64,000 nt of DNA, from contig CATQJL010000112.1 in the NCBI GenBank assembly GCA_958299035.1, positions 80,742,636-80,806,635 on the forward strand, in the 5' to 3' direction. The translations under genes were made by a program, and so were the position numbers. The notes under the pieces are model-generated. The model did no database searches. It saw nothing but the letters and a program-made list of their open reading frames with translations, and had not been told where the DNA came from. This DNA is from Cylicocyclus nassatus. Its lineage: Eukaryota > Nematoda > Chromadorea > Rhabditida > Strongylidae. Of the stretch, positions 20,301 to 49,374 are shown piece by piece; positions within the stretch are counted from its first letter, which is position 1; each line of letters starts with the position of its first letter.

Positions 20301-23114
20301 AAGGCTTTTAGCTACAAGGTTCATAAATTTGTCCATAAAGGCTTTTACGGATAAGGAAGACAGGTTTGGAAGTCATCGTTACATGCTGCATTCAACATAT
20401 GCAGCTTAGAAGTTGGTCACTTCGCTTCTGACCATTTTTTTTTGAACTTTGAACAGTCATGTAACCGAAAGTAATAAAAAGAAGAAGTGATTTGCATTTT
20501 AATGCCCACCCATGTGATTAGGACGAAAACTCACAGCCCAACCGCAAATTTCAATGTTCAATGGGAAGGCCGCTTGTATGCTCAGTATTTTTGAAATAGA
20601 CTCGACAAATTTTTCGAGTGGGTTTAGCATGGTAGCGTATTGAGTAGCTCGACGCGAATAATTCTTGCGCATGCTATAAACGAAATTGCGTAAATTGAGA
20701 AGGTGATAATGCTATGCGTTATTTGTACGGGACAAGGAAAGGGTGCTACGCCACGCCTCGACAGTTATGTGATTTGGAAAACTCACACTCCAATAGTAAG
20801 CTGCAGCACTGGTCTTGGCTTTTCGCCTTTCTGCAAATTGCGATGATCTTTTCTAACTAAACTCAATGGTCTACGTTACCTTGTCGCAGTACTTTTCTTT
20901 ATTGCACACAGTTTCCGGGTAGTACGGGCACTCTCTGTCTTCTCTACAGCTTTGATGAAGGCGAACACACACGTCACTGACACATTTGGCGATAGGAAAA
21001 TAGGGACAGTTGACATCTGCAGTGCATGGCGTGCGCACTTTGACGCAACGTAGATTTATGCAGGCTGTCTGAGGATAAGCGAAACATTCCTTATCCTTTT
21101 GACACTGTTGTCCAACTTTTCTGCATTGCCCCGCTAAGCAATAAGTTCGCGGATATTGACGGCAGTCCGTGTCTACTGTGCATGTTTTCACCTTGGCACA
21201 AAGAGAATTGAGGCAAAAGGTTTCGGGATGAAATGGGCAGTGTCGATCAGTAAGGCAAGGCTGGCCTAGCATCATGCAATGCCTGTTTACGCAACCAATT
21301 CTTGGTGACGACGCGCAGTCCGAGTCTCTGAGACATCGTTGTCCTAATTTCATACACTTACTATTTATGCAGTGAACATGAGGATCAAGCGGGCAATCCG
21401 AGTCAACTCTACATCGTCCACGTAATACTCTGCATCGTGAGTTAATGCACTGCGCATTTTCAAAATTACTGCAATCAAGATCCTTTCTGCAGTCAGCTGC
21501 TTTTATGCACTTCGATCGGTAGCAAGTCAAATACGGAAAGCCTAAGCAGTCTATATCCACCCTACAAATTTGATCCTTTGGGACACAACGCGATTTGACA
21601 CAGTACATGTTGCCAAGCTGCGAACATTCACTATCGCTCTTACAAAAGTGCTTCGCAATAGCACATCTTGATTGCTCGCATGTCCCATCTTGAAGATGAG
21701 AGCAGTCTGATGTTTTACAGCATTTGTCAGTTCTTATGCAACGATTATCTATGCATGATGTGATTGCACGAAAAGGGCAATCTTCGTCATGTAAGCACTC
21801 AATAGCGATTTCTAGGCATTGCCCGTAGATGCACTGTGAAATCGGGTAAGATGGACAGTCACCATCGCTTTTGCATGAGCTCCCAGTTTTCACGCAGTTA
21901 CCGTGCAGGCATATCGTTCCCGGGTAATTTATGCACTCTCTAGTTTCACTGCAGCTTACATCGGTTTTTTGAGAGTAAATACTGAAATAAGTAAACATTG
22001 TCATTATTTCCATGCAATTTACAAAATTATCGAAAAGATAAAATCGCTCACAGTCCTGCACCAACAATGTTTTCGTCTACCTGAAAATAAATAAAACCAC
22101 GGCCATTCATTACTCTGTCAAAGCTCTACCTCACTTCCAAAAACATTACCAAATTTGACGCCTCAACGTTTTCCCGTTCATTCTCTTCCACCTTCTTTAT
22201 TTCTTGACAAACATATTTTAAGATCAGTTACTCTCTCACTTTAAACTCGAAAGTAAATAATGCAGCTAATCTTAATTAGTTCTTTTGTTCGATATGATTC
22301 CAGCACCTCTTCAAGTCCAAATGAAAAGGGAAACGAATTTTAGGGGAGCTTTAGTTTCAAATCCATACTCAAATCTAGATCTTGCGGCGGTTCTTCGAAA
22401 AAGGTCCAAATAAAAGAAAGAAAAAACTAAGCCTATTATGAGGGAGTTTTCAAAGCATTCAAAGCAGCATTTTTCCTCAGCGATTCGTGGAACAAATCTG
22501 CTGCTGTGCATTTTGGCTTACGGGGATCATGCAAACAACTGTAATAGACGATCGCGCACGAATAGCGACAGCAGCAAAGTCCGCTTTTCAAAAGCTAGCA
22601 ACTTTTTACACTCATGAGATTCAGTGTAAGTGATGATAGTAAACTCATATGGTTACAGTAATTTTTTATGAAAAGGTACAGCACACAACTATGGTCTGAT
22701 TGACTTTTAGATCATGAATTAATTTTTGATCAGATTGTTTTTTGATTTTGTTCTAATATTGACAAATACGTGTGCAAGACACATTCTCGCAGTAAGTTGT
22801 AGTTGCATAAATTCCAAACAAAAGTCACTCGAGATTTCGTATTAAAATCAAATTTAAGCTTTGTCTGAGTAATACATGCTGTCGGGTGAAAATGGAGTGG
22901 AAACTGAAGTTTTGAAATAGGTTTCAACTTACCTGTACATACTGCGTTATGTCGTATGTATGTACATGGTCATGCTGTTCATGTCTCTTTTCTGAAAGTT
23001 TCCTGTCCAATTTAAGTGTATACTGAATAACACGCGAAATTGTTCACCATAGTAATTTTGCGACGAGGTAACTGCTATCTGTAACAGCAGAGACACGACA
23101 CCCACGGACACCCT
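12020..23114 (-). CDS. Gene A: giant secreted 4-Cys-module repeat protein (whole gene)
   Basis: Proposed coding exons, 5' to 3' on the minus strand: 23034-23114 (signal, tentative), 22052-22080, 20880-21981, 20787-20830, 18614-19700, 18535-18563, 15836-16928, 15746-15783, 12020-14324. Every junction is in phase; the exons from 22080 on sum to 5727 bases, i.e. 1908 residues plus stop, and the signal exon adds 27 residues. The protein has 61 tandem modules of form C-x5-C-x7-C-x4-C, usually with CxxDxDC at the start and YP after the second Cys, followed by a Pro/His-rich tail. The module resembles Dickkopf-N/EB-type cysteine-rich repeats of nematodes; the exact Pfam family cannot be settled by eye. 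Such proteins are extracellular, but the role is unknown. The ATG exon is not firmly identified. It could alternatively be transcribed as several shorter genes, but the linker exons argue against that. Confidence 0.75.
12140..12690 (-). repeat. Coding minisatellite, 33-base unit
   Basis: About 16 tandem copies of a 33-base unit encoding PKPPRPRPHHH, with rare changes (HHY, HQH, HHC, PKPS). All are whole-codon units, so copy number can change without a frameshift. Gene B has no trace of it. Confidence 0.95.
14325..15745 (-). other. Gene A last intron
   Basis: 1421-base intron with donor GGAAC|GTGAGT and acceptor GGATTTAG. Most of it aligns with gene B intron 36173-37403. It differs mainly by the 202-base MITE at 15251-15452 and by short changes in the polypyrimidine tract. 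Confidence 0.7.
15251..15452. mobile_element. TA-flanked MITE present only in gene A
   Basis: 202 bases with inverted ends CAGTCTGCCTCAAT and ATTGGAGCAGACTG, flanked by TA on each side (15249-15250, 15453-15454). Gene B has the uninterrupted site (CCTCTAGTTAGCG) at about 37108-37120. The element therefore moved after the duplication, most simply by insertion into A. Tc1/mariner-type by its TA duplication. Confidence 0.85.
15746..15783 (-). CDS. Gene A linker exon L1 (38 bases)
   Basis: Acceptor TTTTTTCTAG, donor GGAAC|GTGAGT. Reads KHLHRPPNIEIG plus two bases, joining to the terminal exon as IGTLFLAPWKDKC. The exon is conserved at the same place in gene B (one residue differs). The end motif IG-x-hydrophobic-F repeats in the other linkers, which supports the frame. 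Confidence 0.75.
15836..16928 (-). CDS. Gene A large exon E2: 14 four-Cys modules
   Basis: 1093 bases. Acceptor CGTTTCAG|A, donor GACAAG|GTATGT in phase 0. It begins AFVLPDRKPC and has exactly 14 modules, from CRTIRDC to CKVDKDCPYYPNTYCRYGHC, then DK at the splice site. Module 8 (CRRDSDCPLDPMVYC) matches module 8 of E3 and E4, showing that whole 14-module exons were duplicated. The open frame past the donor is intronic. The apparent start at 16918 is a TTG inside the exon and not a true start. Gene B carries the same exon with only a handful of residue changes. Confidence 0.85.
16929..18534 (-). other. Gene A intron between E2 and linker L2
   Basis: 1606 bases, donor GGAAT|GTGAGT, acceptor CGTTTCAG. 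It holds a 736-base Harbinger-type MITE (17143-17878). Homology to gene B ends just inside the acceptor; the B intron is filled by different elements. Confidence 0.65.
17143..17878. mobile_element. PIF/Harbinger-type palindromic MITE
   Basis: Inverted ends GGCCCGTATGCACGTACATC, with TTA on both sides (17140-17142, 17879-17881), the three-base target of PIF/Harbinger transposons. The halves are inverted copies. The interior is rich in blocks such as GGGGATCCCC near the centre and subterminally. A larger relative lies at 30148-31499. Confidence 0.85.
18535..18563 (-). CDS. Gene A linker exon L2 (29 bases)
   Basis: Acceptor GAAATTTTAG, donor GGAAT|GTGAGT. Reads KAGPLSTVG plus two bases and joins E2 as VGIAFVLPDRKPC. 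Gene B has a 29-base exon at the same place (DVGNPPTVG). Confidence 0.75.
18614..19700 (-). CDS. Gene A large exon E3: 14 four-Cys modules
   Basis: 1087 bases. Acceptor TCCATTGCAG|C, donor CGCAAG|GTAAGA. It opens IFMRPNRKFC and has 14 modules from CTKDREC to CTKDKDCPNYPATVCRNQQC. Spacing within modules is C-x5-C-x7-C-x4-C; module 5 (CRSDAECPVKNTFC) is one residue short, as in E4-type exons. The hydrophobic start seen upstream (MLLVTVVYLFN) is intron sequence and not a signal peptide. The same exon, of identical length, is at 41707-42793. Confidence 0.85.
19929..20006 (-). CDS. Orphan signal-peptide exon candidate
   Basis: ATG followed by MRLVWIGQLTIFLLVFGLQL and SDIPHN, ending at a strong donor AAT|GTAAGT in phase 0. 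This is a textbook signal peptide with the same exit phase as the gene B signal exon. It lies inside an intron. Splicing to E3 would be out of phase, but splicing to linker L2 is in phase and would give a shorter secreted isoform with E2 and E1 only. It is absent from gene B. It may be an alternative first exon or a leftover of an earlier arrangement. Confidence 0.4.
20276..20347. repeat. Tandem duplication, about 36-base unit
   Basis: Two adjacent copies of a unit containing AAGGTTCATAAATYTGTCCA and ending AAAGGCTTTTA, one base different. Confidence 0.8.
20787..20830 (-). CDS. Gene A linker exon L3 (44 bases)
   Basis: Acceptor CAATTTGCAG, donor GGAGT|GTGAGT. Reads KGEKPRPVLQLTIG plus two bases, joining E3 as IGVIFMRPNRKFC. 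A 44-base counterpart is at 45877-45920. Confidence 0.75.
20880..21981 (-). CDS. Gene A large exon E4: 14 four-Cys modules
   Basis: 1102 bases. Acceptor CTTATTTCAG|T, donor GACAAG|GTAACG, followed by a 49-base intron. It opens IYSQKTDVSC and contains 14 modules from CSETREC to CREDRECPYYPETVC, ending CDK at the donor. Module 4 is compressed and carries an additional Cys (CCKTSDC), unlike gene B (CHKTSDC). Length is identical to gene B's exon at 45970-47071. Confidence 0.85.
22052..22080 (-). CDS. Gene A linker exon L4 (29 bases)
   Basis: Acceptor TTTATTTTCAG, donor GGACT|GTGAGC. Reads VDENIVGAG plus two bases and joins E4 as LIYSQKTDVSC. The sequence differs from gene B's L4 but the phase and position match, so homology between the paralogues breaks just upstream of E4. 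Confidence 0.65.
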
Positions 23115-25543: not shown

Positions 25544-25545
25544 TA

Positions 25546-31499: not shown

Positions 31500-31502
31500 T
31501 AA

Positions 31503-32192: not shown

Positions 32193-32194
32193 TA

Positions 32195-33195: not shown

Positions 33196-34200
33196 TTAAT
33201 GTAGAACAGGTTTATATACATTGTTATGAAAAACTAGTGTCCGGAAGTTTTGGTGCTCAAATTGGCTTAGAAAAAGTTGAACTCGCTTATTCACATGAGT
33301 TTCCCATATGATCTCATAATTTGGTCTCTTTTACCATAGCGCTATAAGCACCAAGTTTGAAGCTACCATTGCATGTGCATTGCAAACAAGTAATTTTCTC
33401 GATTCCGATAAAAAAAATTTTCAGGAAAGAACTTATCGCATCTTTCTTTACAATGATTTTTCCGAATTTATTGTGAGGTTTTTCGATCAACAGTTTTTGT
33501 CTATATACCAAATTTGTTAGCATAATTTCACGTGTGCGTTGTAAACGAATCCTCGTTTCTGCTGGTGCACAAAAGCTCAATTTTTAACAATCGCTATGGC
33601 GTTTCCAGCAAGATCGTGTGTGAGCGCGGCAGTAGTGTAGCAATTTTTCGCCATTAAGTTTTACATGTCTTGGAGATACGTTGTGCATATGAATGTGTGA
33701 TTGGGATTCCCCCTTTGTTTCCTCCCACAAACCGATTTCTAGCTTTAAATTTATCGTCCTTTTGCCGAGAGCTGTTTAGCTTTACTGTTCTTCTATTTCG
33801 TCTGGTTATTTACTATACAGCAAATAAACTTGAGGCAATGGGCCTGTAAACTTAGAAGGCAAAGGACTCTTGACGGTGCATGTAGAAATTTCGCAAATAA
33901 ACGCTTGTTGGGGTTCTGTACATTGCTGTCAAATATCGCTATTACAGATGTTCTGTACAAAAGTGAGTCTGATCATTAGCCAGTTGGCTTGATTTGATGT
34001 ATGAAGAGCATGTACAACATGCATCACACGTATATTATGAGTGATTTCATCTCACCAACAACATTTTACGCCACTTCTAGGAGTGATGCACATGCTTTCT
34101 AATTGTACGTACACAATTTTTTTCGAATTTTATGCAGATTCTACCGTGTAAGGGAAAATCTGAACGCTTAACCAATCACAATGATGATAGCACTGTCCAA
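33196..34200. other. Unassigned DNA downstream of gene B
   Basis: No supported gene. No obvious AATAAA on the minus strand close to the gene B stop. Confidence 0.4.
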
Positions 34201-34201
34201 T

Positions 34202-34530
34202 CTTCCTCAGTGACAAGGTCTATGAGACGGTCCACATCCTCCACAGTGACAAGGTCTATGAGACGGTCCACGTCCTCCACAGTGACAAGGTCTATGAGAT
34301 GGTCCACATCCTCCACAGTGACAAGGTCTATGAGACGGTCCACATCCTCCACAATGACAAGGTCTATGAGACGGTCCACATCCTCCACAGTGACAAGGTC
34401 TATGAGACGGTCCACATCCTCCACAGTGACAAGGTCTATGAGACGGTCCACATCCTCCACAGTGACATGGTCTATGAGACGGTCCACATCCTCCACAGTG
34501 ACAAGGTCTATGAGACGCTCCACATCCACA
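34202..34530 (-). repeat. Coding minisatellite, 36-base unit
   Basis: Nine tandem copies of a 36-base unit encoding CGGCGPSHRPCH in the gene B tail. In the last unit a TGT Cys codon reads TGA and provides the stop, so the translated array ends inside a repeat copy. Confidence 0.95.
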
Positions 34531-36172
34531 TCTGCATTGACAACAACTTGGTGTACATGGCGGAGACGTTTTAGCAGTAGAGCAAATAGTCTTCTCAGTA
34601 GTGGGACGGGTAGGCGGTTTTGTGTGTGAAGAGGTCCTAAGGGTTGGAGGAGGGGGATGCCCCTTGCGACATTTTTCATTAAAACAGTGCATTTGTGGAT
34701 AGTACGGGCAGTCATCGTGTTTTTTGCATTTGATGTCGTTTCTGATGCATCTTCCTATGATGCAAATTCGGTCGAACATCGTAGAGACTGCGCCGTGCCT
34801 GCACTGTCTGTCTGTGTTGCATGGTTTTCCAAGGCTAATACATTGCGATTTTAGGCATCGGCAATGGGGATAAAAGAGACAGTCACTGTCCCGAGTGCAG
34901 CGACGACGCTTGACACAGTAGGAGTTTACGCAATCTTCTAAGCCTTGTTGGTACCCACTACACATGCTATCTTTGTGACACTTGCGACGCGGTCTACATT
35001 TGGACGAAATACATGCCGTATACGGATACCCAAAGCATTGTTGGTCTCGAATACAGCTTTTGCCTACGTTTTCTATGCATTGCGATCTCAAGCACTGCAT
35101 CGTGGCTGGATATAGGCAATCTCGGTTTGTTACACAACGTTTTCCAACTGTGTTACATTTACCACCTCTTCCCTTCCCATCAAATACACATCGTAAACCT
35201 GGATAGACCGTACAATGCGAATCGTTCCAGCAGCGCCTATCCATGGCTGCGCACTGCCTGTTTATACAATGTACAAAATACCCTTCTTTACAGTCTTTGT
35301 CGGTGCTGCATGATTGGCCGATCTTTCTGCATCTGCCATTGATGCAAACTGCGTTACGGAAATTGGAGCACTCTTTGTTGTCCCATTTGCAATGCAATGG
35401 ATACTGTATGCACCATCTGTTCTCACAATAAGCATTGAAAATCTTGAAGCAGTCCTTATCGGCTCTGCACGGGACTTTATCTTGACATTCCGAACCGATG
35501 CAAGTCATCGACGGAAGGCAATCCTTGTCTGTTTTGCAGTGCAATGGAGCCCTTTTACAGCGAAATTGAATGCATTTTATGTATGGGGTAAATCCACAGT
35601 CGCTATCTCTGCGACATGTTGGATATAGCTTTCTGCACTGTTTCTGTATGCAAAAAGTGCCGACATGATTCCTGCAGTCTTTGTCAGTGTTGCAGCTCTT
35701 TATTCTGACGCATCTCAAAGAGGAGCAAACAGTGTTGGGGTAGCAATCAGTGTCCCTACGACATTCCTTCACCTTTACACACTTAGACTTCAGACACATA
35801 TACTCCTTCGGCAACATGCAGTCAGAATCAGACCTACACGAAATGGGCAATTGTGAGCATCTTGACTTCAAGCACACTCTTCGTGGATAAGGAAAACAGT
35901 CCGTATTGCTACGACAATTCTTCATTGCCACACATCGTGACTTTACGCATCCTGTGATCGGATAGAAGGGACAATTTGAATCTTTTGAGCACGGTACTGC
36001 AATTCGTAGGCAAAGGCCATGAATGCATTGCGCCTGTGGATAGGGGGGACAGCCACCATCATTCACGCATTTTTTGCCCCCTATGACACAGTAGCCGTAA
36101 ATGCACTTCGCTTTTGATTCTTTGCAATCCTTATCGGCATTGCATTTGTCTTTCGACGGTGCTAGGAACAAC
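34207..36172 (-). CDS. Gene B terminal exon: 19 four-Cys modules plus Cys/Gly/His tail
   Basis: Acceptor GCATTTAG|G. It opens LFLAPSKDKCNADKDC and has 19 modules nearly identical to gene A's. Homology to A stops a few residues after the last module (CRKGHPP). The tail then runs through a Thr/Pro/Ser spacer, CCQCRCGCG, and the CGGCGPSHRPCH repeats to the stop. The upstream in-frame ATG (36228) with a hydrophobic run looks like a signal peptide but is intron: it is the polypyrimidine tract before the acceptor, and gene A differs there by seven bases. Confidence 0.85.
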
Positions 36173-39100
36173 CTAAATGCAAACAATAAAAGAAGAAAAC
36201 AGGTTTCCAGGCCTATCTTAATCCTCATATTGACAAATGCTTATGTAATTGCACTACTCTTTGAATTTGTACTGGCATTTGAAGATACAAGTACGTGAAT
36301 ATCTTTTCATAGTGTGCAATCGTCTTGGTGTCATTTTTCTAATGTTTTGTAATGTTCGTCTTAAAAAGAAGACAAATCAAACAAACCCAAATACTTTTGT
36401 GTTGGTGACAAATACCCAGAAGGGTTCTCTAGAAGAGAACCTCAAGTTAACTTGTTCTTTCTGCCAAAAAACCTATTGTGGTTTTGCTTATACTTTATAT
36501 GTTAATGGCGTTGTCTGCATTTAACTGTTAAATACTATGCGCTTTGAGATAAAGTATGATAAATCCAAAAGACATCTAATCTATCGCAAAAACTAGAAAG
36601 AAATGTTAAAAACTGGTGAGTTTGAGGGAAACAGCAATAAGTATTTGAGTTCGCATCTGAAGCGTCAAGTTCAACCTAGGAAGGGCATATGCATTTTGAG
36701 GATGAGGTTGCTCGGCCATCGGCTGCTATTTTAAGTTGATTTGATTAAAAAGTTATTAAATGGACTTATGATATACACAGCTGATAGGAGGAGACTGAGA
36801 GAATTCTTCCATGCTTACACATTAGCGATGCTTACCAAAGTTGCAACTAGATTTAAGCCACACACTACTTGAAATTCGCTATTGACAAACTTTCGATACT
36901 ACGATTGTCTGTGTCTATCACAAATGAGTACTCTTTCATCGGCATCTTTTTGAGTGATCGTTTTCGGACCTAGTTCTTTGTTCACAATGGCTATGATTTC
37001 GCGAAAGAATAGTCTATACGCAAGTCATGTACAATAGTACAATATGAAGAGCGATTCTCAACCAAGTCATGTTGCTTTTGCAGATCTTGAGAAGATCATA
37101 AAGGACCTCTAGTTAGCGTTGGCAAGCAGTAGTCTTGCCTAAAGTCCAGCAGTTTTTCATGTTGGCTTTGAAATGACAGAATGGATTGCTTAAGGATTAG
37201 CGTGACCCTATGACGTCGTATTCTAAGGAGCATGTGATTTTGTGAGTTTCATCATCCAGACGAGAGGAAAGATTGGGTAAGGGAATCTTGTCTTCGCGAA
37301 CTTTTCACAATTACCACGTACACATATCTCCAAATCAACATCTCGATATCATTACCTTATAATGAATCAAACTAATGCCCACATTTTAATGAAACAAACT
37401 CACGTTCCTATCTCAATGTTTGGGGGTTGATGCAAATGCTTCTAAAAAAATGTCTCAAAACAGAGAGAAAATGAATACTTGAATGCACATACCTTGTCAC
37501 AGTGACCATATCTGCAGTATGTGTTCGGGTAGTAAGGACAATCTTTATCAACCTTGCAGTTCTGTTGGAGATGAACGCACATTTTGTCAATGCATTGCAC
37601 ATTTGGATAATAAGGGCAAGTGACATCTGAGGTGCAAGGCTGCCGAATCTTGACACAGCTGCGGATGACACAGACTACTTCGGGATAAAATGGACATTCT
37701 TTGTCTTGGCGGCAGGGTTGATCGACTTTTCTGCATTGCCTTGCGATGCAGAACGTACCCGCATATGTTTTGCAATCTAAATCTCTTACGCAGTTCAGAA
37801 TTTTGACGCAGAGAGAATTCAAGCAGAAAGTCGATGGTCGGTACGGGCAATCCTTGTCCACAAGACAGAGCTGGCCATATTTTACGCATTGGGATTTTAC
37901 ACAACCTACACCAGGTGCTGAGATGCAGTTTGAATCTGTCTTGCACTGCTGTCCCAATTTTGTGCATACTCGATTAAGGCAGTAAACCATTGGGTCAAGT
38001 GGACAATCTGAATCCCTCCGGCACATTTGTCCTAGCCTGTTGCAGCGTGAAGCAACGCAGTAGGTGGATGGATAGCGCTTACAATCATCATCTTTCTTGC
38101 ATGAGACTGACTTTATACATTTAGAGTTGAAGCACATAGTGTGCGGTTGTGCTGGACAATCTTTGTCAGTTGTACATCGACTATTTAAGTGATAACAATG
38201 ACCCAAAATGCAAATAGCATTGCCTAGACATTCATTATCTGAATTGCAAAGCCGTTCGACGCTAAGACACTTCCTGTTGACACAAGTTTTACCAGGATAT
38301 CGTAAACAGTCACTATCTGTGTTGCATGTGTCCGTTCTCCTACACTGCGAGTTCGTACATCCAACTTCAGGATAGAAAGGACAGTCTTGGTCTTTGTCGC
38401 AAGTCTGCGGAAACTTGAAACACTGTAAATGGATGCACTGTGCTCCGGGATATTTTGCGCAGTCTCGATCCTTGGTGCATCTTACTCCATGTCTTACGCA
38501 TGCTCCACGAAAACACTCAGTGTTTGCATAATCCGAGCAGTCTCTGATGATTCGACATGGCTTTCTATCAGGCAAAACGAAAGCTCTGAAGCGATAAGAC
38601 GACTTAGGAGGAAGGTACTTTCATCCCATATCAAAAGGCCGTGGCCTTTTGATATGGGATGCATATCATCTGAAGCAGCTTCGAACGCTGATTTTAAATC
38701 TGCTTCCCTTTTCTGCGGAGCGCTCTTCTTAAGAGAGTTATGGAAGCCTGAAAATCCTATTTTGGGGCGGTCCTTAAGTTAGAGAGCGCTGCTATGTGCT
38801 TTTGTGGTACAGTGGTGTAATGGTTTGTTTTTGGCATTAAAGGAGAAAGGCCGACGGTTCGAATCTAGTGCAGAGCGTACCATTTTGCGTTCCATTAGGA
38901 ATGTGAGTTTAAAAACCACTCTAATTCGTTTACAGAAATTCGTTTACAGACTGCGAGACTTACATAATGCCTTGGTAAATGTGATTTAAGGAAAAAATTT
39001 TCTGGCAAAACCGCTCGCTTGTTGAGATTTGGTTTTCTCCGCAAAAAAATTCATGTACAGAGGTGAAGCGAAATTACAAAGTGAGCAAAACACAGACATT

Positions 39101-42100
39101 TCTCACAACGGGAACAGCGTATGAAGAAAACCTCCGCGCAATTCTCATGCTCGCGAGTACCCATTAAGTTACTAGGGGAACAATATTGGAGTGGCATTTC
39201 AAATAAATTCAAAACCTTTCAAATGAATTCATTCAAAACGGATTCGAACCATCGACCTTTCGCCCTCAATTCCAACAACAAACCATTACACCACTGCACC
39301 AACAACGCACGTAGCAGCGTCCTCAAACTCAAGGAGGGCCTCAAAACAGAATATTTAAGCTTCCATAACTCTCTTCAGAAGAATGTTCCGCAAAAAAGGA
39401 AAGCAAATTCGAAATCAGCGTTTGAAGGTGCTTCGGATGATATGCATCCCATATCAAAAGGCCACGGCCATTGAAAGTATTAGGTCGTTCCGAAAGTAAT
39501 GTCGCTTTTTTCAAACGTATGCCACATCTCGTGGAACAAAGATGTGTATTAGATGCTGGTAGCTTTTGATGCAGCATTTCATTCTCTTTCTAATGGTTAT
39601 GAAGTTGCTGCAATATAGTCAATAAGCTTCCAGAAAAGAGTTAAAATCTGCGACCTATGCTTGTTGAGATGGCCAAGTTTCACAATTTTTCCAAAATTTT
39701 GTAACAAACCTCAGAAGGAGTCCAAATAATGGATGGATGGAGCAGACCCTACAGGAAACAGCACAACTTTTTTCCACTTTCCAGAGCTCGTCATAATTTT
39801 TGTATAGATTTTTTGATGGAGCCACCGTATTTTAGCAGCCTCGTCCCAGACACAAGTGCGTCAAACGCCAACAAGTCTCCGGATTTTGAAACTTACAAAG
39901 ATGGATTATGGTTTGGCAACAATTTTACAAACCAAACGAGCATTCACCGCTTCGGTTTAGCCACTTTTGAAAATTTCGGGTACACCTTGGGGTGCCTCGG
40001 AAAGTTGAAATATGATCCCGAAAAGTTGAATTATGATTTAATATTTTATCCCGGAAAACTTGATGAATCGGAAACAAAAAACGACCGCTAGAAAGAGGAG
40101 AAAAAGCCGCATCGAATGGCACCCGAGTCGCTTGCCTTGTTGTTCTGTGAGGTTTGACTTGACTAAATATGGAATTTGATGGCATTGAGAAATTGATTGT
40201 GGAAACTCTGAGAAGCAAGCTAAGGTAAAGAAAAAATTGCTCTGTGTTCTATAGTGTTTGCTCTATCTACCTGCCGCTTGTACTTTCTCGAAGATTGGGT
40301 TTCGAGAGCTCATTAAACATTATGCAGTGAAGTTAGAACCATTAGAAAGAGAATGAAATGCTGCATTGAATGCGTCTAAGATCTCTTGAGAATATTGAAA
40401 ATCCACGATAGCGGCGTTCATTCGAAAAAAGCGACATTACTTTCGGAACGACCTGATATATATATCAGTCCCAGGATTTCGGACCGGGGGGGGGGACAAG
40501 CAAATTTTTTCAGATGAAGGTGCGTGGCTAACGCCAGGCACTCCGAAAAAATTTCTGGGGTGTTTCTCAAAATTTAGGCCCATAACTCCAAAATTTTAGA
40601 AAAAGGATTGAGCGCCTCTATGAAAAGTTATGATTTTCCTGAAAAATCCCAAAAAAACCAAATTCGCCCTTTTGTATTGCTTGCCCGAAAATTATAACTC
40701 TTCATAGAGACGTTCAATCGAGGCAAACTTTGCAATGTTGGAAAGAGCTGGTGAAAGAACTACAATACCGACTGCTCCGATTTTTGTGGCAAGTTTCCAT
40801 TTTTTATGACCCTACACGAAAAATTCAAATTTTGAGTAATTTTGGTTTTGAGCTTCTATCTCCGTCATTTGTGAACATTAACGAAAAATTCAGGTACAGA
40901 TGCAAAGAGCATGAGTTCCTCTCTTAAGCAAAATTTCGATCGTATAAATTCGTTCAGAAATCAATGAGTTATGAATTTTTGAAAATCGTTCGCAGGAACT
41001 TTCGATACGACTTAATATACACTATTTGACCATTAATACCTCTCTTCCCAAGAAGTCTCTTGCCCACCCTCAGGTACTATTTTGTAGAGTTAGCTTCAAC
41101 ATAGATTTACAATTTTGGGCGGACCATCGACCGCCCTTCATTACGTAGGATTACGGTGGGAACACCTAGCTTACAGCGTCATTGTAGATTAGTCGTGTTT
41201 CAAAAAAAGTTCACAAAAATTCTAAAAAGTGGTGTATCAGGGGGTGAAATCCGAAGTTCACTTTTGGTTTTGCCAACTCTAATCACTAGTGTAAGAGTTT
41301 CCACGTTTTTTGGTTTGTTTTTCGAAACAAGATAGAGCCCTTAATGCTCAAACCCTTCTTGAAGTTCCTACCGTAATCCTACAGTACTAACGACCCTGCA
41401 AGAGCCATATACCTTTTGATTTTTAGCCAAAAACGATATCCAGGCTGCCAGAGACCTGTGCCGTGTTTTGATTACGACTGATACATGTCACAGCATTTGA
41501 GCCATACGCCACTTTTAATGATAAGTATGTTTTTGAACACAGTAATCAATAGAATCAATAGATGTATAAATAAAGAAAACAAGATCGAAGAAATGTTAAG
41601 AATTGCTTTCAGAATAAAACTCACATTCCAACTGTAGGCGGATTTCCGACGTCCTGGAATTTTGGCGAAGCTAGTATGATGTTGAAATTTGAGTTCAAGC
41701 CCTTACCTTGCGACATTCCTGATTTCTGCATACTGTGGCGGGGTAGTGTGGGCAGTCCCTATCTTTGGTGCATTTTTGGTGAAGTCGAATGCATTTTCTG
41801 TTAACACATTCGAGCTTAGGGAAATGAGGACAACTGTCGTCTGTCGTGCAGGTCATGCCCACTTTTATGCAACGCATATTGATACATGCCGTTTTTGGAT
41901 AATATGGGCATTCGCGATCAATACGACAAATTTGTCCCAAGGTTCTGCAATGTTTATCCATGCAAAACGTGTCCGGGTAACGGCGACAGTCGAAGTCTGC
42001 TTTGCAAGTGATGATGTTTGCACAAAGGGATCTCAAGCAAAAAGTATGGGGATAGTAAGGACAATCACTGTCTATAAAGCATGGTTGCCCTAATTTGACG

Positions 42101-45100
42101 CATGTAGATTTGATGCAACTAACTCCATGGCCAGAGTGACAGTCACTGACTGCTTTACATGGCTGCCCTAGCTTGATACATTTGCTGTTCAGACAATGTA
42201 CATGCGGATCAAATGGGCAGTCTGAGTCAATCCTACAACCTTCTCGTAATGGTTTGCAGCGTGAGTTGATGCAAAAGGTGTCTCTGTGAGCTCTGCAGTC
42301 AAAATCTTTTTTGCACTTTAGTGCTCTCACGCATTGTGAGTCAGAGCACATAGTGTGTGGGTATGCGGGACACGACTGATCTACTGCGCACCATTGCTTC
42401 AAAGCAATACACTTCGAATCTATGCAGAATGTGTTTTTTACTGGACACTCGGCATCGCTTCTACATGACAATGTACACTTGGAGTTGACGCACTTCCTGC
42501 CTGGATACCGTGAGCAGTCTGAGTCTGTTCGACACTTGTCTGCTCTCTTACATCTTGAATCTACGCAGGACAAATAAGGGTAGAAAGGGCATTCCTCGTC
42601 ATAGATGCATGGAAGTGCAATGTTCAGGCAAAGGGAATGAATGCACTGAGCTTGTGGGTAAGCAGGACAATTGTGATCGTCTGAGCAACTTCTTCCTGAT
42701 CTTATGCATTGCCCGTGGAAACATCTGCTGTCTACATAATCGGAGCAATCACCATCTGTCTTACAAGGTTTTCGATTTGGCCGGATGAAAATGCTGCAAT
42801 GGATATAATCACTATACGGTTGGCTGTGCCTAATAGTGATTTTTAACAGAATCATTTCAACTTCATTGTTCAGTGAAAGGCTTTTCTGCCACCGGATGTT
42901 AGCTCTCTATAGCTTTAGGCAATTCTGGGAAAAACGGAAATGATTTCGTTTGTTTAATTAGTTCACGACCTTGTGGTGTACTGAATGATCAATGTCCGCA
43001 ACAGCGATTCTCACAAATTGCTAAAGCCTTAGCATCCGTATTGGATATAGCGTCATGTCAATCAACAATGAGTTACTTTTTGATATACTCAAGCTTGATG
43101 CGATAACAGCAAGGGCAAGCAAAAAAGTTTCATGTTTATTATTGCTCAAGCAGTTGTGAAAAATACATAGCCTAGTGCTAAAGGTAGCCAAAACGCGGAT
43201 GTGCTTAGTGAGAAGCAAACATGGACAAGCGAGGAAGGAATAAAGCTTTTTTCCTTGATGTATAAAGATGTATCTTAAAGGGAAATAAATTTGTTGTTTT
43301 CGTCATAGTAAGAAGTTTGTAAATTTTTCCAGATATATTGCGTGCAGCACGAAATCGCGGCTTGCAAATCACGGATTTTCGAAAAATTGTGAGTCAAAGG
43401 TGTTGTCTCGGCAGAATGTCGTTTTATTTTTTCACCTTTTCAGGTCTTCTAGCCATGAGGAATTTAAATCTGAGCTTTCCGCGCACGAAAATGGCGAAAA
43501 CAAATAATTTTCAAGCTTTTCAAGTACGCATTTTGAAGATACACGCCGAAATTATTTCACGCCCCGCCTTCCTCGTTCCGGGCCCGCTCACTTACACGTA
43601 TTCTCTACTGATTGTGACCTGAAAAGCTTACAGAAAGCTAATTTTTATTTTCATGCGCTGAGAAGCCCAGCTATGATTTCTCATGGCGAAAAGGCTCCGA
43701 AAAGGTGAAAAGTGGAAAAGATATCCTACCGAGACACTGTCTTTAATGATCTTTTTTGAAATCGCACTTTTACGAGTAAAGTGCCTGATTTATGCAGTAG
43801 CGAAGAATTTTTGCACATTTGAGTAAACATTAGAAAGAGCTTGGAAAGAACTTTCGAATCAAAAGTCATATATGCGGGGACTTTGGGGTACAGATGCACA
43901 GATTTGGTTGGCGTTAAAAAAAAGTCTGTCTGACTTCTTCAAAGCGCCGCTCGAAAGATTGTGGGTGGGGTACTGCAAGGTGCTGTCAGGATAACTTGCG
44001 AAGGTCACGTTTACTAAAGCGTTCAAATTGCTGGTTGTTCGTATTTAATCAGCAAGAAACCCAAGAATGTTCAAAAAATGAAGACGCCAAATTACCATGG
44101 CTCGGTACGAAATGGCTTTCTGAACATGCAAAAAACGAAGTCACTCTTGACTTTCTCTAAATGCTACAAAGTTTCCTTTGACCCCAAATCATAAAAGTAA
44201 AAAATCCTTGAAAACGAAACGAGGACTCAAAAAACACATAACCTAAGTTTTGTTTTTGCCAAATTAACAACATTCCTTTTCCTATTTGTTCCAAATACGA
44301 CATCCAGCTTGGTTATAAGCAGGGTTGAGCAAGAGGTCAGGCACAAGTCTTTCCAAAACGACCCCCCCCCCCCAGTGAAAGCCCCTAAACGACCCCTCTG
44401 CTTCACCTCCAGGACCTCAGGCTGTGATAATTCGAAGAGATCGGCCGTTTTTGGGAGGCTCTTGTTTATTGGAGGTCTGTAGGTCGACTTTCTGCGATTG
44501 CACAGCACACGCAACTTGACGGCAAGTTTTGGATTTTGGATAGCCCTACTTTTAGAGCTATAATTCCCACAGGGGTGTATTGTTTGGCTCCAAATTTGCA
44601 GTATTGCAAGAAGAGGCTTTGAGTTCAATACTCATAGCAGAAATGGAGCGATTTTTAGATTTTGAAAACAAGTTAATCGGGTCAGGCGCAACCCCTCAAA
44701 AGCTCAGGCGGCCTGACCTTTTGTGGGGTTGCGCCTGACCCGATTAACTTTATCATTGAAGAAGCTTTTTTATTCAAGTTTTATGTGAATCGCTAGCACA
44801 ACCCTCGAAGATTCCACAGTAAGTGTTTGGACTTGATTCGACTTGTTTCGGCCTTGTGGTAATCCGTGGAGTTGAAGCAGTCATGGAGAAAAACGCGCTG
44901 GTCGGAATTTTGGCATTATTTCTTTCTCCACTATTTGCAAGCGATACAAAGCGCGATATTTAGCCTAGACTATTAGGGAACAATACTTTGTTACGAGTAC
45001 AAAAAAATTGACTTTTCTCACTTTTGAAAACAAGTTAACAATGTTTGAAAATCACGCTTTTTAGTCGTTGAGAAACACTAGATAATGCAGTAAATAATGG

Positions 45101-48100
45101 TTTGTAGGGCTCATAGAGGTAATTTGACGTGCTCGGAAATGATACCCATTTCACACAGCAAGCTTCCTTGATGAATTTATAATATGTCAAGGTAGAAGAT
45201 GAAGATTTGAGTTTTGGCCGAAACTTCGATTGTAGAATCAATCAGTATGCTGTTTAAGACCGTTCATTCCTTCAGTACTGGTGAGGTCGCGATATCCACT
45301 AAACTAGCGCTTTTCTTCTTCACCTTAATCGTAGTATCTCCTCAATCGAACGAATTCGATTCCTAATCACGACCCCCCCCCCCCCTCTGTCTTACCCCAG
45401 TACGACCCCCCAGGTCGGGCGCGCCTGACCTCACGCTCAACCCTGGTTATAAGCCACCTGTGCCGGACCCTGCCCATTACTTCTGGATCACCTAATAATA
45501 GACAATGTTCAATAAAATGAAGACTAGTCACTGACATTAAAACCACGTGTGATAAGACCAATGAAGAGGGTTTAATCTTAAGATGCTGACTATATTGTGC
45601 GCACAAATACACGTTAAACTGAATTCCTTACATTCTACAAGATAGTTTTTGAAAAAGTCGCTAGTATGCTCAGTATTTCTAATGTAAACTCGACAAATTT
45701 TTCGAGTGATTTTAGCATGGTAGCGTGTTGAGTAGCTCGACGCGAATAATTCTTGCGCATGCTATAATACGAAATTTGCATAAATTGAGAAGGTGATAAT
45801 GCTATGCGTTATTTGTACGGGACAGGGAAAGGGTGCTACGCCACGCCTCGACAGTTATGTGATTTGGAAAACTCACACTCCAATGGTAAGCTGCAGGACT
45901 GGTCTTGGCTTTCCACCTTTCTGCAAATTGCGATGATCTTTTCCAACTAAACTCAATGGTCTACGTTACCTTGTCGCAGTACTTTTCTTTATTGCACACA
46001 GTTTCCGGGTAGTACGGGCACTCTCTGTCCTCTCTACAGCTTTGATGAAGGCGAACACATACGTCATTGACACATTTGGCGATAGGAAAATAGGGACAAT
46101 TGACATCTGCAGTGCATGGCGTGCGCACTTTGACGCAACGTAGATTTATGCAGGCTGTCTGAGGATAAGCGAAACATTCCTTATCCTTTTGACACTGTTG
46201 TCCAACTTTTCTGCATTGCCCCGCTAAGCAATAAGTTCGCGGATATTGACGGCAGTCCGTGTCTACTGTGCATGTTTTCACCTTGGCACAAAGAGAATTG
46301 AGGCAAAAGGTCTCGGGATGAAATGGGCAGTGTCGATCAGTAAGGCAAGGCTGGCCTAGCATTATGCAATGCTTGTTTACGCAACCAATTCTTGGTGATG
46401 ACGCGCAATCCGAGTCTCTGAGACATCGCTGTCCTAATTTCATACACTTACTATTTATGCAGTGGACATGAGGATCAAGCGGGCAATCCGAGTCAACTCT
46501 ACATCGTCCACGTAATACTCTGCATCGTGAGTTAATGCACTGAGCATTTTCAAAATTACTGCAATCAAGATCCTTCCTGCAGTCAGCCGCTTTTATGCAC
46601 TTTGATCGGTAGCAAGTCAAATATGGAAAACCTCTGCAGTCTCTATCCACCCTACAAATTTGATCCTTCGGGACACAACGCGATTTGACACAGTACATGT
46701 TGCCAAGCTTCGAGCATTCACTATCGCTCTTACAAAAGTGCTTCGAAATAGTACACCTTGATTTTTCGCATGTCCCGTCTTGAAGATGGGAGCAATCTGA
46801 TGTCTTATGGCATTTGTCAGTTCTTATGCAACGGTAGTCTATGCATGTTGTGATTGAACGATAAGGGCAATCCTCATCACGTAAGCATTCAACCGCGATG
46901 TTCAAACATTGCCCATAGATGCACTGTGAAATCGGATAAGCTGGACAGTCACTATCGCTTCTGCATCCGCATCCAGTTTTCACGCAGTTTCCATGCAGGC
47001 ATGTCGTTCCTGGATAATTTATGCACTCTCTCGTTTGACTACAGCTTACATCGGTTTTTTGTGAGTAAATACTGTAATGAAGAGAATATGGAATTGTTGT
47101 ACATCTTAAGACGACTACTTACATTCCTATGACCGTCTCCTTGGTTATTTCTATCTGAAATTATTGACTTTAAAATAACTGTCTGCAAGCTTTCTATAGA
47201 TTATTATTAGAGATTCTTCTTTATCTCGTTGCTAAAATACAATATGTTGTTGGACTTGACCCGGCATTTTGAGTTTCTCAATTTCGTTTGTGTCAAACAA
47301 GCACCAAACCTAACAGCAAGAAAAATGTGGGTTTTATGTCTTGATGTTATGGAAATGTTCCCCAATCCAACAGTTTGAATTGTTCATTATTTAAGTGCGC
47401 CAGCGCGTCAGTCCGTGCTAGTTGTAGTCATGATTGTGTGACGAAAAACTGATTAACACATTGACGACCGCTTGAGACACATGGTGTGTCAAGGCTTAAC
47501 ACACCATCTGTGTCGTTGTAATGTCTACTGTTTTGTGTGAAATCCGCCCCGGGCGTTTTCTTTTACGCTGGATCTAAACACAACCTTTGATGTTTTTGCT
47601 AGCATTACAGCGTTACTGTAGATGTACTGTAAATGGAATTGTGCGTGAATTTGTCTTAAAAGTGTTGAGTGGTCCATGAAACGCCTTGGTCGTCAATGTG
47701 TTAAACTATCGATACTCAAATTCGAATATACTCGGTCTTTGTCCATTTATTTGCTGTCTTAATGGATGCGCTTATCCGAAAACTTTATCATCTGGATGTT
47801 GATAATTGAAACACATGCAGGCGTTGCTAAGGAGGATGTTCCTCATATATCAAAGCATCGGTATGAAAACTGAGGACAAGATGCGAAATAGTTTTGCAAG
47901 CTTATCAAGTGGCAAAAATAGTGTATATTTAGATTGGATCAAAAGTTAGATTGGATCAAAAGTCTTGGCATGACCCGCAGAATTTTGAGTAAAGTAAATA
48001 AACAAACATTTCAAACTGTAACCGATGCAGTAATTTTTTCTCTTCACAGCAGCTATATTTCAGTGTGATCCTTTAAAAGAATCCTGAGATCGTGGAGATT

Positions 48101-49374
48101 ACAGCCTACAGCCTTTCTTTTTCACCATGCCTAATTTCGGTAACTTTCGGAATTGCGACCTGACAAGGAAAGGAAGGTTGGTCGAAGTGGACTTTTGTTA
48201 GAGACGGATACAGGCTTGAAAGTTATGAAACGCTAATTCGAAATCTATCTTCGTTATCTGCTGCGGGTTCCTGAGCGAGGATAGGATTTACAAAGGGTTT
48301 TATGGCAAAAACTTGCATGTGCAGCTAGAATAAAATCAGTCGTTAAAATTCAAGGCTCGAATGATTTTCGGGTTACTCTGTGCAACAAATATTTATAAAT
48401 TGGACATATCCACCCAATTCTGTCGCTTTGGAATGCTAGGAAAAGTCAAACGATTGGTTTTGCACTGGTCATGCATTAAATTTTTTGCCCATAAATACTT
48501 CCAGAAAGCTCATTGCTCAGGAACCCGCAGCAGATAAGAAAGGTATATTTTGAATCTGCGTTCGTTCTTTCATACTCTTTAAGTCAATACACTTCTCATA
48601 CAGAATTACTACTTCGACTAGCCCTCCTTCCTTGTGAGACTGTTGGGGGAACTTTACCCAGCAGATAAGGCGTACCATTTGCCAAGTAGGGTTGGTAACA
48701 TTAATAAACAACTGCTGAAACCTTTGAACATTTTACAATGTTTGGCACAATAACAGATTATGCGATTTTTCCAAAACTCAAGACTTTTGGAAGACTATTC
48801 AGAAAATTCCTTCTGAAAAGGACAGCTGAAAAAGGAAAAAATGTAACAGTTGAAACATTTGCATGACTGTTGGCTATCAAGTCACCCAAAAGTCTCAAAT
48901 AAAAATTTTTGAAAATCAGCGAAAAGTGGACATGCAGAAAAAGAGGATTGTAATCTCCAGCCTCAACACTCGCAAAAATCACATTGTGAACAAGGTAGCT
49001 GGAAAAAGAAAGTTTAGCGTCGGATATATCTTAGAGTATGTGTTTATCTTTACTGTGCGGGATTTGCGGGTCATTTTAAAAAAGGGAGAGAGTCTCAAAG
49101 TCGACCTAACATTTTTTTCTCCAAGAAAAGGTTATAGAGATATAGTAAAAAACAACTAAGGCAAGATAAGTTGATTTCAGACATTCTTACGACAACTCTC
49201 ACATTATTTACTCACCTCTCTCCCTGGTTGTACTTGACCATATCTGCTATTAGACAGAACCACTGTTGTTAGTACAAGCATGAAAAGAGCACAATTTAGC
49301 ACCAGCTAAAAGTATCGTATTTTTTACCACTTATAACGAGAATAAGAGATTTGATATCTTACTTTGTGCGCCAT
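34207..49374 (-). CDS. Gene B: giant secreted 4-Cys-module repeat protein (whole gene)
   Basis: Proposed coding exons, 5' to 3': 49363-49374, 49216-49305, 47123-47154, 45970-47071, 45877-45920, 41707-42793, 41625-41653, 37493-38585, 37404-37441, 34207-36172. Together 5493 bases, 1830 residues plus stop, all junctions in phase. Signal peptide, 61 four-Cys modules in blocks of 14, 14, 14 and 19, then a Cys/Gly/His repeat tail. It is the upstream tandem paralogue of gene A with the same exon-linker alternation; E2, E3 and E4 have identical lengths in both. The modules resemble Dickkopf-N/EB-type nematode repeats. Extracellular role unknown; matrix, cuticle or secreted binding functions are possible but unsupported. 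Confidence 0.8.
36173..37403 (-). other. Gene B last intron
   Basis: 1231 bases, closely similar to gene A's intron 14325-15745 but without its MITE. Confidence 0.7.
37404..37441 (-). CDS. Gene B linker exon L1 (38 bases)
   Basis: Acceptor TTTTTTTAG, donor GGAAC|GTGAGT. Reads KHLHQPPNIEIG plus two bases. Confidence 0.75.
37493..38585 (-). CDS. Gene B large exon E2: 14 four-Cys modules
   Basis: 1093 bases, the same length as in gene A, acceptor CGCTTCAG|A and donor GACAAG|GTATGT. 14 modules from CRIIRDC to CKVDKDC. The differences from A are scattered single residues (for example CNSDNEC for CKADNEC), which points to recent duplication or gene conversion. Confidence 0.85.
38803..38881 (+). 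other. tRNA-derived sequence (pol III A and B boxes)
   Basis: Begins GTGGTACAGTGGTGTAATGG and ends with GGTTCGAATC followed by a short arm and GTACCA. It fits a tRNA-like cloverleaf outline with complementary ends (GTGGTAC/GTACCA), but the anticodon arm is not clean, so it is a tRNA relic and not a confident tRNA gene. Confidence 0.5.
39236..39312 (-). other. tRNA-derived sequence, opposite arm
   Basis: On the minus strand: GTTGGTGCAGTGGTGTAATG (A box) and GGTTCGAATC (B box), the inverted partner of 38803-38881. Confidence 0.5.
39480..40456. mobile_element. Mariner-type palindromic MITE
   Basis: 977 bases, ends TTAGGTCGTTCCGAAAGTAA and the inverted copy (TCAGGTCGTTCC), TA on both sides. It sits six bases from the foldback element, inside the gene B intron. 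Confidence 0.85.
41020..41400. repeat. Partial Tc1-type repeat
   Basis: Diverged palindromic fragment related to 24254-24941: ATTAATACCTCTCTTCCCA, GAGTTAGCTTCAACATAGAT, and the pair GTAGGATTACGGTGGGAA / TTCCTACCGTAATCCTAC. Confidence 0.5.
41625..41653 (-). CDS. Gene B linker exon L2 (29 bases)
   Basis: Acceptor AAAATTCCAG, donor GGAAT|GTGAGT. Reads DVGNPPTVG plus two bases, joining E2 as VGIAFVLPDRKPC. Confidence 0.75.
41707..42793 (-). CDS. Gene B large exon E3: 14 four-Cys modules
   Basis: 1087 bases. Acceptor TCCATTGCAG|C, donor CGCAAG|GTAAGG. Opens IFIRPNRKPC, 14 modules from CKTDGDC to CTKDRDCPHYPATVC. Near-identical to gene A E3 except the first module, which differs strongly (CKTDGDC/CTKDREC). 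Confidence 0.85.
42794..45876 (-). other. Gene B intron between E3 and linker L3
   Basis: 3083 bases, expanded relative to gene A (1086) partly by a 1126-base hAT element. The last 220 bases before L3 are shared with gene A. Confidence 0.65.
44320..45445. mobile_element. Non-autonomous hAT element
   Basis: Ends CAGGGTTGAGCAAGAGGTCA and the inverted copy GCTCAACCCTG, flanked by the exact 8-base duplication GTTATAAG (44312-44319, 45446-45453). Eight-base duplications and CAGGG ends are hAT hallmarks. It contains C-tracts near both ends and a strong internal palindrome at 44671-44749. No transposase. Confidence 0.9.
45877..45920 (-). CDS. Gene B linker exon L3 (44 bases)
   Basis: Acceptor CAATTTGCAG, donor GGAGT|GTGAGT. 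Reads KGGKPRPVLQLTIG plus two bases. Confidence 0.75.
45970..47071 (-). CDS. Gene B large exon E4: 14 four-Cys modules
   Basis: 1102 bases. Acceptor TTCATTACAG|T, donor GACAAG|GTAACG. Opens IYSQKTDVSC and runs 14 modules from CSQTREC to CREDREC. The reading frame extends through the first module and upstream of the internal Met at about 46983 that would otherwise look like a start. Module 1-2 boundary reads GCGCRSDSDC, with an extra Cys compared with gene A. Confidence 0.85.
47123..47154 (-). CDS. Gene B linker exon L4 (32 bases)
   Basis: Acceptor AATAATTTCAG, donor GGAAT|GTAAGT. Reads IEITKETVIG plus two bases, joining E4 as IGIIYSQKTDVSC. Confidence 0.7.
47155..49215 (-). other. Gene B intron 2
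   Basis: 2061 bases between the signal exon and linker L4. It holds a foldback (48254-48541) and a degenerate mariner-type palindrome remnant (about 48650-49115). A 17-base unit (TTAGATTGGATCAAAAG) is duplicated at about 47931-47964. Confidence 0.6.
48254..48541. repeat. Foldback repeat
   Basis: Inverted ends of about 25 bases: GTTATCTGCTGCGGGTTCCT and its complement near 48515-48538. Interior not obviously palindromic. Confidence 0.6.
49216..49305 (-). CDS. Gene B signal-peptide exon (90 bases)
   Basis: Acceptor GATACTTTTAG, strong donor GAG|GTGAGT, phase 0 at both ends. Reads LVLNCALFMLVLTTVVLSNS then RYGQVQPGRE. Together with MAHK from exon 1 it forms a classical signal peptide with a charged start and hydrophobic core; cleavage is likely around SNSRYG. 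It fits linker L4 in phase. If exon 1 is wrong, the internal ATG at 49281 would still give a shorter signal. Confidence 0.65.
49363..49374 (-). CDS. Gene B first coding exon (12 bases)
   Basis: ATG GCG CAC AAA followed by donor GTAAGA, encoding MAHK. The 57-base intron and the join to the 90-base exon keep phase 0 and supply the positively charged start that the signal peptide otherwise lacks. Confidence 0.55.

Follow-up and report, generated by a model that had tools for sequence, protein, structure and literature searches.

The genome of the strongylid nematode Cylicocyclus nassatus contains, within an analysed stretch of 64,000 nucleotides (the window), long open blocks of cysteine-rich modules, which raise the question of whether each block is a gene of its own or an exon of a much larger gene. 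The first-pass annotation had proposed the latter, namely two giant genes in which large, splice-bounded exons are joined by tiny linker exons. The present analysis arrives at the same reading, with a probability of roughly 0.8: two tandem genes, A and B, each encode one giant secreted protein by a phase-locked chain of exons and linkers, and stem from an old duplication with partial gene conversion. Judging from the sequence, transcripts would follow the predicted chain.

Gene B extends on the minus strand from 49374 to 34207, an interval that had originally been given for both genes but holds for B only. Its ten exons (12, 90, 32, 1102, 44, 1087, 29, 1093 and 38 nt, then the last exon up to the stop), when spliced from the sequence, yield 5493 nt including the stop codon and 1830 aa. 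The six junctions named for this gene by the first-pass annotation are all GT-AG, and the chain stays open across them. The features of gene B are as follows.

49363..49374, minus strand: exon 1, start codon, encoding MAHK (donor gtaaga)
49216..49305, minus strand: exon 2, hydrophobic signal-peptide-like segment LVLNCALFMLVLTTVVLSNSRYGQVQPGRE (sole candidate in its scan, judged by hydropathy)
47123..47154, minus strand: linker L4, 32 nt (spliced chain)
45970..47071, minus strand: large exon E1, 14 modules (spliced chain, module pattern)
45877..45920, minus strand: linker L1, 44 nt (splice sites, mini-exon scan)
41707..42793, minus strand: large exon E2, 14 modules (spliced chain, module pattern)
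41625..41653, minus strand: linker L2, 29 nt (splice sites, mini-exon scan)
37493..38585, minus strand: large exon E3, 14 modules, EB module and DUF7107 by Pfam (chain, Pfam, pattern)
37404..37441, minus strand: linker L3, 38 nt (splice sites, mini-exon scan)
34207..36172, minus strand: last exon E4, 19 modules (by eye), then a Cys/Gly/His-rich tail (36-bp repeat, 9.3 copies) and stop

Gene A lies at 22080 to 12020 and is open from its first linker for 29 + 5698 = 5727 nt, or 1908 aa; the open lengths claimed earlier for both chains were recovered on recomputation. Its features are listed below.

22052..22080, minus strand: linker L4, 29 nt (open chain)
20880..21981, minus strand: large exon E1 (open chain)
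20787..20830, minus strand: linker L1, 44 nt (mini-exon scan)
18614..19700, minus strand: large exon E2 (open chain)
18535..18563, minus strand: linker L2, 29 nt (mini-exon scan)
15836..16928, minus strand: large exon E3 (open chain)
15746..15783, minus strand: linker L3, 38 nt (mini-exon scan)
12020..14324, minus strand: last exon E4, modules, then a Pro/His-rich tail (33-bp repeat, 16.2 copies) and stop (open chain)

A scan of the 12 kb between 22085 and 34200, up to gene B, detected no good signal-peptide exon for gene A, and a relaxed scan yielded four weak candidates, one of them at 26035-25964. A possible homology between the two 5' flanks was dropped, since the match at 48960-48731 is part of a repeat that occurs in several places and in both orientations.

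The joining of exons and linkers obeys one phase rule in both genes, as had been described before. Large exons begin one base before a codon boundary and, where internal, end in phase 0 at AAG/gt (6/6 in A and B together), while linkers start in phase 0, comprise 3n+2 nt and terminate with a Gly codon plus two bases (8/8). Linker lengths likewise agree with those noted earlier, being, in order, 32, 44, 29 and 38 nt in B and 29, 44, 29 and 38 nt in A. That linkers separate large exons is true of L1 to L3 but not of the first linker of each copy, which precedes E1 by 51 bp (B) or 70 bp (A) instead of shortly following a large exon. Because of these phases, linkers and large exons must alternate: skipping of a linker, as well as direct splicing of exon to exon or linker to linker, would cause a frameshift. 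A linker together with the following large exon, in turn, leaves the frame unchanged and could be duplicated or skipped as one cassette. This would accommodate alternative isoforms of a real chain, in which such cassettes are skipped or chosen and the signal exon of B possibly serves A too, as A has no good signal exon in the scan, exon 2 of B ends in phase 0 and L4 of A starts in phase 0. Sharing that exon, however, would require splicing to span gene B over about 27 kb, and alternative isoforms are regarded as a very unlikely account of the locus.

A single predicted chain per gene is favored by the linkers themselves. The 180 nt that follow E1, E2 and E3 were scanned in both genes, and each of these six stretches contained a single in-phase mini-exon candidate, as compared with 2.5% of 20,000 random 180-nt control stretches, although the criteria were fixed after the linkers had been seen and the six sites depend in part on one another, counting as about four. 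Moreover, L2 is 67% identical between A and B, yet has kept its length, frame and Gly end, while the flanking introns align at no more than 42-59%. Alternatively, each large exon could be a gene of its own or an operon cistron, with the linkers being chance open stretches. The large exons of gene B indeed all lie within long open frames (385 to 677 codons), and E4 of B features an in-frame upstream ATG followed by a hydrophobic stretch, which could pass for the signal peptide of a separate gene; an in-frame ATG likewise precedes the acceptors of E2 in B and E1 in A. On the other hand, an in-frame upstream ATG is kept by both copies in 0/4 exon pairs, that of E4 in gene A is out of frame, and the hydrophobic stretch is read here as a translation of the acceptor's pyrimidine tract. 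Considering further the uniform phase and end rule at 8/8 junctions, the retention of L2 length and frame despite heavy divergence, and the recurrence of the linker rule in two relatives, P0001 and gene D (see below), separate genes appear highly improbable.

Each module comprises four cysteines. In gene B, a pattern search recognizes 14 modules in each of E1 to E3 and 17 in E4 (18 in E4 of A), whereas E4 of B read by eye contains 19, a number that fits the Cys counts of E4 (76, i.e. 4 x 19, in A and 77 in B) and thus gives 61 modules in all, as the first-pass annotation had stated. Among E1 to E3, the corresponding module is the best match for 11 (E1-E2), 9 (E1-E3) and 11 (E2-E3) of 14 modules, and the diagonal means of 79.4, 73.1 and 79.2 compare with permutation maxima of 64.2, 62.9 and 64.2 (10,000 permutations each); the pattern split E1 of gene A into 13 modules in this analysis and into 14 in the separate module count. 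By their sequences, E1, E2 and E3 are in-register duplicates of one whole 14-module exon, while E4 shows no clear register with them in the module comparison.

Structure prediction for four modules gave a helix turn and a beta hairpin (mean pLDDT 84, pTM 0.63). Fold searches produced weak matches only, with EETI-II superposing at an rmsd of 1.5-1.6 over 28-29 residues, and no family beyond the weakly matching ones named here. Two-disulfide hairpin/knottin folds, as far as outlined in part of PMC4942781 and represented in the PDB by EETI-II and the Dkk4 N-terminal region, resemble the predicted module in having one beta hairpin. A sequence search of the PDB with E1 alone found no match. Repeats of the LDL-receptor class A type possess six cysteines each. 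A relation to these was rejected, for the modules have four, and the match of a four-module profile to LDL-receptor-type chains (E 6e-5) was taken as one of Cys/acidic pattern.

With respect to Pfam families, the EB module (PF01683) exceeded its gathering cut-off of 24.3 bits in two of the four exons (E1 25.8, E3 35.0), the best stretches covering only positions 17-39 (E1) and 12-39 (E3) of the 52-position profile, and had no match on E2 and E4 at E 0.1. DUF7107 (PF23416) reached 25.5 bits in E3 (cut-off 24.6) and was not above it in E1, E2 and E4. In two relatives, genes C and D, the EB module scored 58.6 and 294 bits and DUF7107 41.7 and 264.4 bits, respectively. A CAP domain was not detected in A and B, the best CAP match in the window having an E value of 0.22. 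The building blocks of A and B are already known in kind, being of the EB-module type. Literature searches retrieved no paper on DUF7107, nothing on the Ancylostoma ceylanicum locus name given below, and one paper, on Anisakis, for the EB module and hookworm.

The two copies are 94-98% identical in their exons, with dN of 0.012-0.038 versus dS of 0.05-0.21 (E4: module part only). Introns L1-E2 (beyond 221 bp), E2-L2 and L2-E3 gave no blastn alignment, whereas L3-E4 is 96% identical. Synonymous divergence in E2 amounts to 0.56 over the first 40 codons, 0.35 over the last 40 and 0.04-0.13 between (Fisher 1e-7), and in E1 to 0.32-0.44 over the first 120 codons and 0-0.17 thereafter (Fisher 5e-6), where site numbers were back-computed from divergence windows and one zero window was set by hand at 27 sites. 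In a conversion test based on the longest identical run, the observed run was reached by 0 of 5000 shuffles for E1 and E4 and by 206 of 5000 for E3, and was not significant for E2 (1234 of 5000). In their sequences, A and B look like an old tandem duplication that was partly homogenized by gene conversion. Gene A might instead be decaying after loss of its 5' end, or the two copies might be partly separated assembly haplotypes, as the high exon identity and the lack of a good signal exon for A would suit; yet the frame of A stays open through 1908 codons and its dN remains well below dS, the differing tails and largely unalignable introns are unlike ordinary alleles, and both copies reside on one 89-Mb contig, which renders this unlikely, although A may be truncated and yet still conserved.

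Support for two giant exon-linker genes comes, besides L2 conservation, from relatives. Gene D, situated outside the window 55 kb beyond the start of gene B, contains an open frame of 2833 codons, 412 of them for cysteine, and its giant exon is preceded by one in-phase 32-nt linker with the end rule of A and B. The giant frame is followed by CAP-domain pieces (tblastn E 4e-10 and 8e-10), of which a 74-aa piece alone had no Pfam match; Thr-rich ends and CAP pieces occur in neighbouring relatives. As evidence to the contrary, gene C has no linker of the A/B type in the 180 nt before its exon, and a 26-nt candidate 0.8 kb before the exon was discarded since it ends in Arg, not Gly. Its register with E1-E3 was dropped as well: the diagonal was reached by 8533, 1090 and 7407 of 10,000 permutations, and the equal number of 14 modules is therefore no evidence of shared descent by exon.

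In A. ceylanicum, Y032_0016g3122 (P0001, 346 aa; EB module, DUF7107) exhibits the same linker-to-exon join as A and B: a hydrophobic start is followed by a linker-like peptide ending in IG, one residue, and AYLLPSNKPC, which matches AFVLPDRKPC of E3. Its nearest match is E3 of both copies (38%, 174-179 bits; E2 158-161, C 151, D 135), and the terminal NITNINIGE of P0001 resembles another linker whose translation runs on into the donor. Unlike A and B, P0001 has about ten modules in its predicted gene model. Ancylostoma caninum ANCCAN_01594 (P0002, 520 aa; EB modules, Thr-rich stretch) shares the four-Cys modules (36-38% to E1-E3) but carries a CAP domain; within the stretch searched, it matches gene D best (50% over 239 columns, 229 bits), not A or B. 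For the whole 1830-aa chain, a protein search revealed no homologue among 209 candidates of 0.55-1.75 times its length, the related gene models found having 346 and 520 aa only, and a prokaryote genome scan found no relative.

In schistosomes, micro-exon genes encode secreted parasite proteins by very short in-phase exons that form most of the coding sequence. Gene B has short in-phase exons in common with them, but exon 1 and the four linkers account for just 155 of its 5493 nt, so that its coding sequence does not consist mostly of very short exons. For Anisakis, putative proteins of three to five repeated EB modules each, with transcripts raised in the pharynx, were described (PMC5763927); these resemble A and B in their repeated modules, and the part of that paper considered here describes no giant exon chain. 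Similar in size and tandem Cys-rich build are large, putatively secreted Caenorhabditis elegans proteins of 920-1800 aa, which, according to the part of PMC3534327 considered here, alternate Kunitz and double-cysteine (DC) domains, unlike A and B, and which the authors propose to act in the basement membrane or matrix.

By analogy, the proteins of A and B may be extended disulfide-rich secreted rods of the nematode EB-module kind. In the proposed arrangement, alternating 14-module exons and linker exons of 29-44 nt would give one chain per gene, in which the linkers may act as short hinges of 9-14 aa between disulfide-braced 14-module rods, and the tail, His/Pro-rich in A and Cys/Gly/His-rich in B, would constitute a variable end; the exported protein could form a long, multivalent scaffold or spacer outside cells. 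A speculative and rather doubtful extension regards the strongylid cluster as a system of phase-locked cassettes. Micro-exons would act in it as obligatory adaptors between exchangeable 14-module exons, by which giant secreted disulfide rods would be assembled and reshuffled, exons would be traded between copies via conversion tracts, and the arrays, including those of a sister gene with about a hundred modules and a CAP domain, might be multivalent spacers displaying effector ends (CAP, His-rich or Cys-rich tails) at a distance from the worm.

The proteins that parasitic worms secrete are studied mostly via automatic gene models, and the exon-linker gene model may explain the mis-annotation of such genes: the two hookworm models may be fragments of much longer proteins, and the phase lock offers a simple rule for locating missing linkers. 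In addition, A and B offer an example from nature in which exon cassettes were duplicated in strictly kept phase and apparent conversion tracts end close to exon borders. The CAP-carrying neighbours connect this repeat family, which has received little study, with a secreted family that is well known from strongylid worms.

The first-pass annotation had proposed that four large frames of four-cysteine modules (exons E1 to E4), together with tiny linker exons preceding each of them (L4, L1, L2 and L3, respectively), constitute a single gene present in two copies. At the sequence level, this claim is borne out: both chains stay open upon splicing, and all six junctions that had been named are of the GT-AG type. 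The accompanying coordinates hold for gene B and left gene A uncovered. The two copies are arranged as follows:

34207-49374, minus strand: gene B, ATG at 49374, stop ending at 34207; 10 exons, open for 5493 nt, 1830 aa
12020-22080, minus strand: gene A, from the linker at 22080-22052 to 12020; open for 5727 nt, 1908 aa

Judged from sequence, the predicted model of large exons joined by linkers is very probably right, and its support is now better than at the time of the proposal.

The phase rule stated at the outset applies throughout. All six E1 to E3 exons finish in phase 0, at AAG|gt; large exons open one base ahead of a codon boundary, and linkers begin in phase 0 with two bases left over at their ends. 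In addition, a Gly codon plus two bases closes all eight linkers of the window. By arithmetic, these phases imply that joining a large exon to a large exon, or a linker to a linker, breaks the frame, while a linker together with the following large exon is frame-neutral. Hence, the linkers would serve as obligatory adaptors, and the natural unit of duplication would be a linker with its exon.

In the 180 nt following E1, E2 and E3 of both copies, each of the six stretches contains exactly one candidate, the proposed linker, while one occurs in 2.5% of 20,000 stretches drawn at random from the window, under criteria that were fixed after the linkers had been seen (length 3n+2, open, YAG acceptor, GT[AG]AG donor). 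With identities between A and B of 90% for L1 and 97% for L3, the two copies of these linkers are not independent. L2 shows 67% nucleotide identity, yet its length of 29 nt, its frame and its Gly end are all kept, and the introns flanking it yield no A-B alignment by blastn. Moreover, the Ancylostoma ceylanicum gene model Y032_0016g3122 (346 aa), the sole match among the 119 candidates of an initial protein search, repeats the linker-to-exon join as KITVNKYSIG, one residue and AYLLPSNKPC. Its C-terminal end, NITNINIGE, reads at the protein level as would be expected from a second linker translated into its donor.

Each large exon could alternatively represent a separate gene, as in-frame ATG codons lie upstream of E2 and E4 in gene B and of E1 in gene A; however, for no exon is such a codon present in both copies. 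In gene B, a hydrophobic stretch mistakable for a signal peptide comes after the ATG ahead of E4, but this stretch is what the acceptor's pyrimidine tract yields on translation; the matching ATG before E4 of gene A is out of frame.

36172-36228, minus strand: pyrimidine tract before E4 of gene B, signal-peptide-like and in frame with the ATG, a trap for gene finders

This tract could cause automatic annotation to split gene B. Read as one gene, B begins with an ATG exon of 12 nt and a hydrophobic exon of 90 nt; a scan for ATG/hydrophobic exons yielded the latter as its single candidate. The same scan of 22085-34200 returned no 5' exon for gene A, and a relaxed scan gave four weak candidates; gene A may be truncated, may use a poorer 5' exon or may borrow that of gene B.

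E1, E2 and E3 of gene B comprise 14 modules apiece, typically C-x5-C-x7-C-x4-C, and share five-residue spacers behind modules 3, 6 and 10. The best match of a module is its equally numbered counterpart in 11 (E1-E2), 9 (E1-E3) and 11 (E2-E3) of 14 cases, with diagonal scores exceeding the maxima of 10,000 permutations. Owing to this module-by-module register, E1 to E3 are the result of duplication of whole 14-module exons. E4 is more distant, with 3 to 5 of 14 diagonal matches. Pfam searches detected the EB module (PF01683) in E1 and E3 and DUF7107 (PF23416) in E3, and nothing above cut-off in E2 and E4. A profile of the four-module rows (window 13703-47043) weakly matches residues 188-232 of hookworm Na-ASP-1 (E 0.086), a segment close to where the two CAP domains of that protein meet.

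Exons of A and B are 94-98% identical, with dN of 0.012-0.038 and dS of 0.05-0.21 (for E4, module part only). Synonymous divergence in E2 stands at 0.56 over the first 40 codons and at 0.35 over the last 40, compared with 0.04-0.13 between these ends (Fisher 1e-7); in E1, it drops from 0.32-0.44 over the first 120 codons to 0-0.17 in the remainder (Fisher 5e-6). Similarity runs from E1 through L1 into 221 bp of intron and ends there; the remainder of intron L1-E2 and introns E2-L2 and L2-E3 gave no alignment by blastn, and intron L3-E4 is 96% identical. Most simply, this pattern is explained by tandem duplication long ago, followed by gene-conversion tracts. In a longest-identical-run test, E1 and E4 agree with conversion (0/5000 shuffles), whereas the result is borderline for E3 (206/5000) and not significant for E2 (1234/5000). 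The tails differ, yet both are His-rich, with Cys in addition in B, and possibly form a metal-binding end:

12157-12691: minisatellite, tail of gene A, 33-bp unit x 16.2, Pro 41%, His 24%
34195-34527: minisatellite, tail of gene B, 36-bp unit x 9.3, Cys 20%, His 13%

In the 514.7-Mb assembly, a 401-base segment of E2 has two matches, namely copies A and B; the contig carrying the window measures 89 Mb. Scanning 100 kb per side (tblastn, E 0.001) revealed no further family members on the left and two on the right, with none in the 30 kb past the right flank. In window coordinates, these relatives and further elements are:

80829-82127, plus strand: gene C, open frame, 14 modules, Thr-rich end
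104189-112687, plus strand: gene D, single open frame of 2833 codons, 412 Cys, about 103 modules
3559-6186, plus strand: open frame of a LINE-type element, endonuclease and reverse transcriptase domains
27688-28290, plus strand: open frame, perhaps of a Penelope-type element, whose GIY-YIG match falls slightly below the Pfam cut-off
48676-49112, 26457-26865 and 25543-25997: repeat around genes A and B, several copies, both orientations

Gene D contains a 79-aa unit x 16 and a Thr-rich end, and is followed downstream by CAP pieces (115511 and 119882) that may be spliced to it. The 180 nt preceding its giant exon hold one candidate linker, which measures 32 nt and closes with a Gly codon plus two bases. 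Gene C, whose modules are out of register with E1-E3, has weak CAP-like matches 2-3 kb downstream, at 83781 and 84788, both with stops inside the matched reading and possibly spliced to it; no linker candidate occurs in the 180 nt before its exon, and a 26-nt candidate 0.8 kb upstream ends in Arg. Within the stretch searched, Y032_0016g3122 best matches E3, while the CAP domain-carrying A. caninum model ANCCAN_01594 (520 aa) best matches gene D, at 50% and 229 bits, against no more than 160 bits for any other place.

No earlier description of the phase-locked linker design was found in the literature (open-licence papers). Taken together, the genes belong to a known kind, the nematode EB-module repeat proteins, as a variant set apart by its phase-locked linkers, its size and its putatively CAP-linked neighbours.
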